Of a DNA stretch of 64,000 bases, positions 17,370-64,000 are shown piece after piece. The notes under the pieces are model-generated. The model had not been told where the DNA came from. It did not search any database and saw only the letters and a list, made by a program, of their open reading frames with translations. Both the position numbers and the translations under genes were made by a program. Origin of the DNA: Bolinopsis microptera (lineage: Eukaryota > Ctenophora > Tentaculata > Lobata > Bolinopsidae); assembly GCF_026151205.1 (NCBI RefSeq), contig NC_087073.1, positions 558,001-622,000 on the forward strand, in the 5' to 3' direction. Each line of letters starts with the position of its first letter. Positions within the stretch are counted from its first letter, which is position 1.

Positions 17370-20300
17370 ATGGCGAAACAGTTCTTCAACTACCTTGTGA
17401 TTGGGGCAGGTTCGGGCGGTATCGCCAGTGCTCGCCGCGCTGCACTCCTTAAACCCTCTCTCAAGATAGCTGTTATCGAGAAAGCGAGACCTGGAGGCAC
17501 TTGTGTTAATGTGGGATGTGTTCCCAAAAAGGTTGGTTTATATCTAGCGGTATTTTAGATTATTAATAATAACAACAAATATTTCATCCGGATAAATTGT
17601 AAACTAAATTTATCATTTTTTCTATTTGTCTACCCTTTTAAACGATTTTATCTCTTTTGAGCTTCGTTAAATTTCAGGTTATGTTCAAATTTCAGGTTAT
17701 GTTCATGACAGCAACAGTTAAATTTCAGGTTATGTTCATGACAGCAACAGTTAACGAAGCATTACACGATGCAAAGGACTACGGTTTTGACATCGTGAAG
17801 AAAAACAAGTTTGACTGGGCGATGTTGAAGGAGAAAAGAGATGCTTACGTCAAAAGACTGAACGGAATTTACACAAGTAACCTGGGCAAAGACAACATAA
17901 CTTACATACAGGTTAACCATCTTCTATTATAACTTTTTAGTTTGAATTCATATTTCTCTGACCGTCCGAGATCCAGTATCCACGCCCGATCAAGTTCATA
18001 CAAGTTCTTTGGTCAACAAATAGCGATGCTAGAGCTTGGTGTGAACAAATCTTGACCTACTTTCAAACCTTTGGGACGACTCTCGCAAATGCGAGAGTAA
18101 TGACCCCGGGGAGGGCCCCATTGGTTTTAGAAGGTTGCATATTTATTTAAAAAATTTTAAAACATTTAAAAAAAATGATGTTAAAAAAATTAAAAAAAGT
18201 TCATACAAGTTCTCACAGCACATTATCTATCCCTCCTGTGTACGTACAGTGACAATAAATAATGACATGTTATTAACAAAACATGCATGCTGGTAATCAC
18301 TATTAGAATCTGAATAATCAAAAGATTCATCGCTATCTAATATATTGGGATTAAAAAGTTAAGGCATGGAAATTATTGACATGAACATGTTATCTAAGTT
18401 ATTCTAGGAGTCAATAACTACTACTATACACACCAGTTTCAGAAAAATAGCATTATTTCATGAAAGTCGTAGAATCCATAATGGGGACTTGGACCTATTT
18501 ATATCACCTTATAAAATACACATACACCCTCAGTTATCCATTCTTTTTTAGAAAAGAAAATACTGTTATAAGTATTTAAAGGGAACTAAAATCATTTTCC
18601 CCAAACATTAAAACATTAATCCGTGCACACTGTTTTCCAGGGAGCAGCCACGTTTACAGGTTCACGTACCGTCTCAGTAGATAGTTACATTCCACACTCG
18701 TTACTATAGCAACACGTTACATTCCACACTCGTTACTATAGCAACACATTACATTACACTGTTTTTCAGGGAGCAGCAAAGTTTACAGGTCCACGTACCA
18801 TCTCAGTAGAGGGGGTGGAGTACGAAGGGGAGCACGTGTTGATAGCAGTGGGGGGCCGCCCCACCATCCCCAACATTCCTGGAGCTGAACTATGCGATAC
18901 CAGCGACGAGTTCTTCGAGTGGGACACTTTGCCGAACAAAGTTCTAGTTATAGGTGCCGGGTATATCGCTGTGGAGATAGCAGGTTACTATAGCAACACG
19001 TTACATTCCACACTCGTTACTATAGCAACACGTTACATTCCACACTCGTTACTGTAGCAACACGTTACATTCCACACTCGTTACTATAGCAACACGTTAC
19101 ATTCCACACTCGTTACTATAGCAACACGTTACATTCCACACTCGTTACTGTAGCAACACGTTACATTCCACACTCGTTACTGTAGCAACACGTCACATTC
19201 CACACTCGTTACTATAGCAACACGTTACATTCCACACTCGTTACTGTAGCAACACGTTACATTCCACACTCGTTACTATAGCAACACGTTACATTCCACA
19301 CTCGTTACTGTAGCAACACGTTACATTCCACACTCGTTACTGTAGCAACACGTTACATTCCACACTCGTTACTATAGCAACACGTTACATTCCACACTCG
19401 TTACTGTAGCAATACGTTACATTCAACACTCGTTACTGTAGCAATACGTTACATTCCACACTCGTTACTGTAGCAATACGTTACATTCCACACTCGTTAC
19501 TATAGCAACACGTTACATTCCACACTCGTTACTGTAGCAATACGTTACATTCCACACTCGTTACTGTAGCAATACATTACATTCCACACTCGTTACTATA
19601 GCAACACGTTACATTCCACACTCGTTACTGTAGCAATACGTTACATTCCACACTCGTTACTATAGCAATACGTTACATTCCACACTCGTTACTATAGCAA
19701 CACATTACATTCCACACTCGTTACTATAGCAACACGTTAGATAGTAGGTTGGTGGAGAACTTGGTACATTATTGAATAATGATGGGCGGGGCTAGTTATT
19801 TTGTAACACACACTAAGTAAGGGTTTGACTTAACTACCATACTCAGGAATACTACACAATCTGGGTGTAGATACCACATTAGTAGCAAGAAGAGGTGCCA
19901 TTCTGCGTTACTATAGCAACATTCCACAACACGTTACTATAGCAACACGTTACATTCCACATTCTCAGGAATACTACATAATCTGGGTGTAGATACCACA
20001 TTAGTAGCAAGAAGAGGTGCCATTCTGCGTTACTATAGCAACATTCCACAACACGTTACTATAGCAACACGTTACATTCCACATTCTCAGGAATACTACA
20101 TAATCTGGGTGTAGATACCACGTTAGTAGCAAGAAGAGGTGCTATTCTGCGTTACTATAGCAACATTCCACAACACGTTACTATAGCGACACGTTACATT
20201 CCACATTCTCAGGAATACTACATAATCTGGGTGTAGATACCACATTAGTAGCAAGAAGAGGTGCCATTCTGCGTTACTATAGCAACATTCCACAACACGT

Positions 20301-63127: not shown

Positions 63128-64000
63128 GTACGTACTGAGTTCAGTATCTCTACCTCGTTACTATAGCCTGGAGCCTTGTTGCTGCTCTCGTCTTCTACAG
63201 ACAGGTACGTACTGAGTTCAGTATCTCTACCTCGTTACTATAGCCTGGAGCCTTGTTGCTGCTCTAGTCTTCTACAGACAGGTACGTACTGAGTTCAGTA
63301 TCTCTACCTCGTTACTATAGCCTGGAGCCTTGTTGCTGCTCTAGTCTTCTACAGACAGGTACGTACTGAGTTCAGTATCTCTACCTCGTTACTATAGCCT
63401 GGAGCCTTGTTGCTGCTCTCGTCTTCTACAGACAGGTACGTACTGAGTTCAGTATCTCTACCTCGTTACTATAGCCTGGAGCCTTGTTGCTGCTCTCGTC
63501 TTCTACAGACAGGTACGTACTGAGTTCAGTATCTCTACCTCGTTACTACAGCCTGGAGCCTTGTTGCTGCTCTCGTCTTCTACAGACAGGTACGTACTGA
63601 GTTCAGTATCTCTACCTCGTTACTATAGCCTGGAGCCTTGTTGCTGCTCTCGTCTTCTACAGACAGGTACGTACTGAGTTCAGTATCTCTACCTCGTTAC
63701 TATAGCCTGGAGCCTTGTTGCTGCTCTCGTCTTCTACAGACAGGTACGTACTGAGTTCAGTATCTCTACCTCGTTACTATAGCCTGGAGCCTTGTTGCTG
63801 CTCTCGTCTTCTACAGACAGGTACGTACTGAGTTCAGTATCTCTACCTCGTTACTATAGCCTGGAGCCTTGTTGCTGCTCTCGTCTTCTACAGACAGGTA
63901 CGTACTGAGTTCAGTATCTCTACCTCGTTACTATAGCCTGGAGCCTTGTTGCTGCTCTCGTCTTCTACAGACAGGTACGTACTGAGTTCAGTATCTCTAC
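63128..64000 (+). repeat. 77-bp minisatellite copying the end of exon 19 and its donor
   Basis: About 11 copies run to the window end. Each unit has the donor GTACGTACTG, an acceptor-like GAGTTCAG and the last 60 bp of exon 19 (TM3 residues to YRQ) followed again by a donor. Each could be read as a 60-nt micro-exon in frame. Confidence 0.93.

Follow-up and report, generated by a model that had tools for sequence, protein, structure and literature searches.

Mirage-like tandem repeats at exon-intron junctions of two neighboring genes in the ctenophore Bolinopsis microptera

Tandem repeats extending across exon-intron boundaries have been described in the amphioxus Adh3 gene and named mirages (PMC3087553, PMC3902484). 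In the available portions of these sources, mirages are also documented in the amphioxus globins BflGb6 and BflGb9, troponin C and PGBD5, at acceptors as well as donors; many, although not all, of the extra copies retain AG or GT, and regular splicing is reported to remain undisturbed. Here we describe such structures in a 64,000-nucleotide stretch of the genome of Bolinopsis microptera (Ctenophora), referred to below as the window (GCF_026151205.1, NC_087073.1, 558,001-622,000, contig C2; the assembly comprises 264.65 Mb in 232 contigs), where exon edges with their splice sites are duplicated at 10 of the 41 analyzed junctions of a glutathione reductase (GSR) gene and an adhesion G-protein-coupled receptor-like (aGPCR) gene, with 1 to 39 extra copies each. 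These structures are real and strikingly dense, yet of a known kind, namely, mirages: the repeat unit spans the exon-intron boundary, the true boundary is contiguous with its exon, the duplicates are intronic, and AG or GT is kept. In contrast to the amphioxus mirages, as far as the accessible text describes those, the present ones are found in a ctenophore, affect 10 junctions in two neighboring genes, reach about 40 units, and carry a palindromic GTTAC core in most units. No ctenophore mirage was found in the open PMC literature searched, and the present case extends the phenomenon from lancelets to a comb jelly, a distant lineage, at high local density.

Each unit of the IFI6 (6-16) minisatellite is said to offer a splice donor, resulting in multiple donor sites, reportedly a 1995 finding of Turri et al. 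In human segmental-duplication genes, exon-intron boundaries are described as carrying internal tandem repeats with units of 30 bp on average (PMC2812944); like these, the ctenophore structures are minisatellite-sized units that alter gene structure at such boundaries, but for the human paralogues, according to the part of that source available, transcripts attest to alternative forms and to new introns, unlike the case reported here. In the potato RNA-dependent RNA polymerase (RdRp) gene, a tandem duplication across an intron-exon boundary is described, in the sections accessible, as having formed a new intron (PMC4974935); here, too, the duplicated segment crosses one boundary and inherits the splice signals, but the copies have apparently been absorbed into the old intron. 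Overall, we consider it likely that the window contains lancelet-type mirage minisatellites that were seeded roughly at random, are tolerated through exon-proximal splicing, and were probably promoted here by the palindromic core.

The exon models of the two genes are as follows.

17370..27857, + strand: GSR gene, nine coding exons, joined by GT/AG splices into a single open frame from ATG to stop
GSR exons, + strand: 17370-17531, 17729-17911, 18770-18983, 20579-20700, 20890-20988, 21191-21279, 26706-26929, 27162-27283, 27663-27857
51010..63127, + strand: 3' half of the aGPCR-like gene, 13 exons (A-M), with Ephrin_rec_like and GPS domains above cut-offs in some exons, consistent phases and no stops
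aGPCR exons A-F, + strand: (read from 51010)-51238, 55940-56064, 56474-56596, 56814-57070, 58223-58358, 60377-60514
aGPCR exons G-M, + strand: 60684-60901, 61013-61123, 61471-61559, 61614-61809, 61946-62159, 62408-62499, 62681-63127

The pieces of the GSR product match glutathione reductase chains of the PDB, with the best match to 1k4q, which we take to be the human enzyme; Pyr_redox_2 scored above its Pfam cut-off and Pyr_redox_dim (21.5 bits) slightly below its own. A homologue was sought for the 5' half of the aGPCR gene, and none was found. The Pfam scan covered the + strand outside 27602-33999 and outside most of 1-17600, along with five chosen open reading frames (ORFs) on the - strand. 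Reading frames, not RNA, were used to infer the spliced copy, and the anatomy is that of one assembly.

A junction was considered duplicated when, of the 15 bases on each side of it, at least 25 of the 30 matched elsewhere within 3 kb. The set of 41 junctions consists of 16 from GSR and 25 from aGPCR, the start of exon A being excluded; the ten that are duplicated are listed here.

17669..17754, + strand: 33-bp array at the GSR exon 2 acceptor (junction 17728|17729), preceded by an 18-bp partial copy
18641..18770, + strand: 129-bp duplication at the acceptor of GSR exon 3 (junction 18769|18770), with 26 of 30 bases matching at -129; the unit includes 32-bp GTTACTATAGCAAC repeats, and the upstream copy has diverged
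19838..20641, + strand: 122-bp array, 6.6 copies, at the acceptor of GSR exon 4 (junction 20578|20579), with 63 nucleotides of exon per unit
27239..27443, + strand: 68-bp array, 3 copies, at the donor of GSR exon 8 (junction 27283|27284)
51181..51442, + strand: 107-bp duplication at the aGPCR exon A donor (junction 51238|51239); the unit contains GTGTTACTAGG repeats
54802..55951, + strand: 41-bp array followed by a 66-bp duplication at the exon B acceptor (junction 55939|55940)
56054..56424, + strand: duplicated exon B donor (junction 56064|56065), with two extra copies, the nearest at +140, and a GTGTTACTAAGG array
58386..60399, + strand: 50-bp array, 40 copies, at the exon F acceptor (junction 60376|60377), with 39 acceptor copies upstream
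61170..61536, + strand: 137-bp duplication at the exon I acceptor (junction 61470|61471), containing GTTACTATAGTAAC repeats; the exon start is present in 3 copies
63060..64000, + strand: 77-bp array at the exon M donor (junction 63127|63128), running 1,524 bp beyond the window

When the adjoining sequence is added, the exon M donor has 37 extra copies within 3 kb; beyond its array lies a 25-bp array of 17.8 copies that again includes the donor, and the 12-mer CAGGTACGTACT occurs 44 times between 63051 and the end of the fetched flank.

The initial annotation of this stretch, made from the sequence alone, had placed arrays at the starts of GSR exons 2, 3 and 4 and the end of exon 8, all of which are present on verified exons. 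The same holds for the aGPCR arrays it had assigned to the end of exon 6, the start and end of exon 7, the start of exon 11 and the end of exon 19, which apparently correspond to the A donor, the B acceptor and donor, the F acceptor and the M donor; that list lacks one duplicated junction, the exon I acceptor at 61471, with a total of 3 copies. It had also stated that the functional copy is always the one at the array edge. This is borne out in all 10 verified cases, with acceptor copies upstream and donor copies downstream, that is, on the intron side only, yet geometry leaves no other option: the remainder of the exon is contiguous with the edge copy alone, so no special mechanism is needed.

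The extra copies look like competent splice sites. AG or GT is kept in all 91 of them, although selection at 25 of 30 matching bases favors such retention, and 82 of the 91 score within 0.5 bit of the used site or above; at exon F, the median decoy scores the same as the used acceptor (10.9 bits). Use of the nearest decoy would result in a stop codon in 9 of the 10 cases and, therefore, splicing must choose by position. Thus, the window offers a natural splicing experiment, in which 39 near-identical extra acceptors in a row, or dozens of donors, compete with an exon-proximal site that alone appears able to give protein. The differences between edge and decoy copies point the same way. Of these, 11 of 21 are synonymous compared with 23.8% expected for random changes (P = 0.004), or 10 of 16 (P = 0.001, against the same expectation) without the exon B donor; we give both counts because the second copy of this donor matches just 11 exon bases, which inflates the differences. 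Such enrichment would follow from a coding role of the edge copy and favors the exon-proximal copy in this role. The five decoys of GSR exon 4 differ from the functional copy by 0 to 3 synonymous changes each, and each decoy of GSR exon 8 has 2 synonymous differences. In mirages, the interior copies would homogenize with one another to the exclusion of the edge copy, and on this point the picture is mixed: shared changes absent from the edge copy are present in 3 of the 5 decoys of GSR exon 4 (all three sites), in both decoys of GSR exon 8 and in 11 of 11 decoys of aGPCR exon M; at exon F, 11 of the 12 decoys shown are identical to the edge copy. From the stop codons and the synonymous enrichment, we infer that the exon-proximal copy is the spliced one. 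The suggestion of the initial annotation that copies are kept because splicing tolerates them is consistent with the anatomy, namely, the competent-looking extra sites, the clean GSR frame obtained from edge junctions and the parallel with lancelet mirages, the edge copy probably being the one used.

GSR exon 2 is the exception to the stop codons: its upstream acceptor would lengthen the exon by 33 bases, encoding 11 in-frame residues without a stop. This case is what could be expected if the duplicated sites were functional alternatives that give protein variants; given that, in the other 9 of 10 cases, splicing at the nearest decoy would bring in a stop codon, we find this explanation highly improbable.

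The preferred reading, random seeding followed by tolerance, could be pictured as follows. Tandem arrays with a period of at least 10 make up 12.9% of a 200 kb genome sample and 25.6% of the window; the Hormiphora genome, in the portion of the source available, contains 13% with the same program (PMC8527503). With about 13% of the genome in arrays, short intron segments would often be duplicated head to tail. Selection would then remove duplications that lie wholly within exons, and those that are intronic or cross one splice site would survive. After a boundary is duplicated, only the copy beside the rest of the exon stays contiguous with it; the spliceosome would stay with this exon-proximal copy, the extra copies would become intron, and the array could reach dozens of units. 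Finally, most junction units in the window carry the half-site of the palindromic core, and this core, rather than the splice junction, probably promotes duplication.

A different explanation, offered by the initial annotation, is that the splice junctions themselves trigger tandem duplication, through R-loops, transcription-coupled breaks or splice motifs serving as short homologies. The expectation depends on the background: in the introns of the two genes, 1,468 of the 10,507 interior positions are duplicated (14.0%, later copies not counted), or about 8% without the nested duplication in the aGPCR gene near 52120-53499. At these backgrounds, 5.7 or 3.4 of the 41 junctions, respectively, would be duplicated by chance, compared with the 10 found (P(>=10) = 0.052 or 0.0016). 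Across seven settings of match length and identity, 7-10 junctions were duplicated compared with 3.1-6.0 expected (p 0.0015-0.25), and the excess weakened with longer match windows. Thus, the window shows a junction excess of no more than about threefold, which is post hoc because the pattern led to the choice of the window. Also in favor of a junction trigger, arrays in window introns hug exon edges, and arrays of at least 8 copies have splice-motif scores above those of random segments, both in the window (n = 11) and in the genome sample (n = 7), but sample arrays of fewer than 3 copies show no motif excess; this scoring of array units has been superseded by the exon-junction test.

No excess was detected outside the window. 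For replication, we used 13 TCP1 and myosin loci, found by a Pfam search of the assembly, in which 57 introns were solved and 3 exon pairs had no solution; with 5 low-scoring introns dropped and the second copy of a duplicated myosin exon (locus L029) omitted, 52 introns with 104 junctions were available. None of the 104 was duplicated, with an intron background of 1.0% and about 1 expected. The 200 kb sample consisted of 20 stretches of 10 kb, taken at regular steps along contigs C1, C3 and C5 rather than drawn at random; here, an array passed if its edge unit included a splice site adjoining a coding-like exon beyond the array, and length-matched random segments served as the control. In the sample, 3 of the 81 arrays passed compared with 2.7-3.7 expected (thresholds 18-20), whereas a threefold excess would give 8-11; in the window, 7 of 42 passed compared with 2.1-2.7 expected at the same thresholds, a count slightly favored because the window's own exons were in the training set of the exon predictor, of which the sample is independent. 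Over thresholds 14-26, the sample yielded 3 to 1 passing arrays compared with 5.7 to 1.1 expected, and the window 10 to 3 compared with 4.1 to 0.5. An earlier version of this test (sample, 2 of 63 compared with 1.6-2.3; window, 7 of 39 compared with 1.7-2.1; thresholds 18-20) was superseded because an array at locus L013 was lost when TRF (Tandem Repeats Finder) ranked a 202-bp period first; the final test uses the smallest good period.

The claim that junctions are struck more often than chance would allow thus survives as a modest, post hoc excess in the window and fails in the genome samples. The claimed trigger is unsupported (0 of 104 replication junctions; no excess among the 81 sample arrays), and the overlap of arrays with splice sites, checked in these small samples only, was no greater than chance, an outcome that the initial annotation had itself set against its proposal. 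With p rising to 0.25 for 50-base matches at the higher background, we regard triggering by junctions as unlikely.

The signal of the palindromic core is stronger than the junction excess and makes the core the most interesting candidate for an underlying bias. The core, GTTACYATRGTAAC, with the half-site GTTAC(T/C)A, recurs in otherwise different tandem arrays; we presume that it and the exact palindromes below resemble RFX X-boxes. The half-site or its complement is present in 15 of the 45 array units of the window compared with 1.0 expected, and in 6 of the 89 sample array units compared with 1.5 expected (P = 0.004); outside arrays, it is not over-represented. Among the junction units, 7 of 10 carry it compared with 0.3-1.0 expected for random segments. 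Genome-wide, the exact palindrome GTTACTATAGTAAC occurs 210 times, against 5 occurrences of its reversed control and 0 of a palindrome with identical composition, the exact palindrome GTTACCATGGTAAC 786 times compared with 1 (17 of these sites lie within 1.2 kb on contig C1), and GTTGCCATGGCAAC 123 times compared with 0. Of the 50 GTTGCCATGGCAAC sites listed, out of 123, 23 are in pairs or triples about 1.24-1.28 kb apart, a spacing that suggests a dispersed or repeated element. Examples of window arrays with the core or half-site are given on the following line.

17062-17327, 18684-19739, 51244-51442, 56085-56424, 61256-61536

Repeat units are also shared within genes: the same 32-bp unit is found in GSR introns 2 and 3 as well as upstream of GSR exon 1, and aGPCR introns A and B both contain an 11-bp GTGTTACTAGG-like unit, so that the arrays are related. 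A bolder version of the argument, which we put forward tentatively and regard as possible though on balance doubtful, is that the ctenophore core GTTACYATRGTAAC promotes tandem duplication across the genome in a sequence-directed manner and spreads between the introns of one gene, so that, introns being short, exon edges are repeatedly dragged along into arrays of dozens of competing splice sites, resolved by position alone. In either version, the core is a concrete, testable candidate for the abundance of tandem arrays in these introns.

Several observations weigh against random seeding promoted by the core. With respect to seeding, the junction count in the window exceeds the intron background (10 compared with 3.4-5.7), and 8 of the 21 window arrays lie at junctions or within 12 nucleotides of them compared with 2.3 in simulations; the replication introns lean weakly the same way (3 of 24 arrays compared with 1.2, p = 0.10). 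The window and the replication set differ sharply (10 of 41 compared with 0 of 104, Fisher p = 1.4e-6), with arrays also far denser in the window, and the power of the replication is low because arrays are few there (intron background 1.0%). Exons in the sample were called with a crude predictor. With respect to the core, its signal was unplanned, the core having been chosen after the window was viewed, and in an open scan of 6-mers in the sample arrays, words related to the core are present (GGTTAC, 5 compared with 0.9), but other words rank higher (the best, GCGACA, 5 compared with 0.4). The core is not the sole cause, because 3 of the 10 junction units, and the unit at locus L013 as read, lack it, and the core counts are not independent because neighboring arrays share sequence.

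Some of the structures call to mind intron birth as in the Rogers model, whereby tandem duplication of exonic AG|GT segments would have made the array-bearing introns. Several units do read AG|GT, for example, TTTCAG|GTACTT, and the intron 58358-60376 is almost wholly array, but a repeat unit shared by the used donor and acceptor was seen in none of the 8 introns that have a verified duplicated junction and whose two ends are both known (a ninth intron, after exon M, for which the acceptor was not located, is not in this count). Intron A alone is duplicated at both ends, and there by different units. We consider such an origin of these introns very unlikely.

The single assembly and the uncertain copy numbers of long, near-identical arrays raise the question of an assembly artefact, with repeats collapsed or expanded. 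Several of the duplications, however, are diverged and of low copy number, with 26 to 29 of 30 bases alike, and would not be produced by repeat collapse; furthermore, a similar structure exists at the unrelated locus L013. We therefore give an artefact very little credence. The array at L013:8101-8987, the one convincing case in the sample, has a 28-bp unit in about 31 copies, composed of the last 22 exon bases followed by GTAAGT, and the exon encodes an Activin_recp domain (22.9 bits, cut-off 20.9).

Additional arrays of the window, outside the ten duplicated junctions, are as follows.

18984..19739, + strand: 32-bp array, 23.6 copies, adjoining GSR exon 3 and starting at the GT of its donor
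40893..42858, + strand: 105-bp and 58-bp arrays at the start and end of a putative aGPCR exon 3 (about 41134-41273), an exon without homology support
47842..49740, + strand: TGTAG array of about 360 copies that starts within a donor-like site, with copies of the end of a putative aGPCR exon 4 on both sides, an exon without homology support
13197..13362, + strand: acceptor at 13335|13336, duplicated around a TGGTAACTAA array, the duplication being interrupted by an insertion and matching at 23 of 30 bases at -123

The first of these carries no exon bases and was therefore left out of the ten. The arrays described by the initial annotation at aGPCR exons 3 and 4 exist as described, but the exons lie in the 5' half of the gene, for which no homologue was found, and the upstream copies of the exon 3 start end at the acceptor, carrying no exon bases. 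Similarly, the acceptor (CCTCAG|G) before the gene at 13342 does have a copy 123 bp upstream, but, at 23 of 30 bases, slightly under the threshold of 25; this gene has a weak Pfam match to AP-5 sigma (19.3 bits compared with the cut-off of 30.7).

An intron of the aGPCR gene contains an oppositely oriented ORF of a rhodopsin-type receptor at 52120-54040 (- strand), in which 7tm_1 scored 29.3 bits (cut-off 30.5) and the 3' part is tandemly duplicated with a spacing of about 698 bp; nested genes are described as common in the ctenophore Hormiphora in the part of the source available (PMC8527503). A glutamate-receptor ORF of this genome was matched, at 212.8 bits, to the 256-residue ML032222a construct of Mnemiopsis in the PDB, with higher total scores for longer kainate-receptor chains. 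GSR intron 6 includes a long open frame at 24451-25212 (+ strand), with no Pfam match at E <= 1, beside TCC/TCCTCAG-type repeats. Such imperfect repeats, with a recurring CAG, form two separate stretches, 22220-24471 (2.2 kb) and 30812-33331 (2.5 kb). Among the replication loci, L029 contains adjacent copies of a myosin motor exon at 2613-2804 and 2856-3086 (profile positions 105-167 and 102-167), possibly mutually exclusive exons. At locus L036, a 1.9 kb array with a CTAAC- and pyrimidine-rich unit (2777-4682) ends 13 nucleotides before the acceptor of a TCP1 exon, and its unit resembles a repeated branch point and pyrimidine tract.

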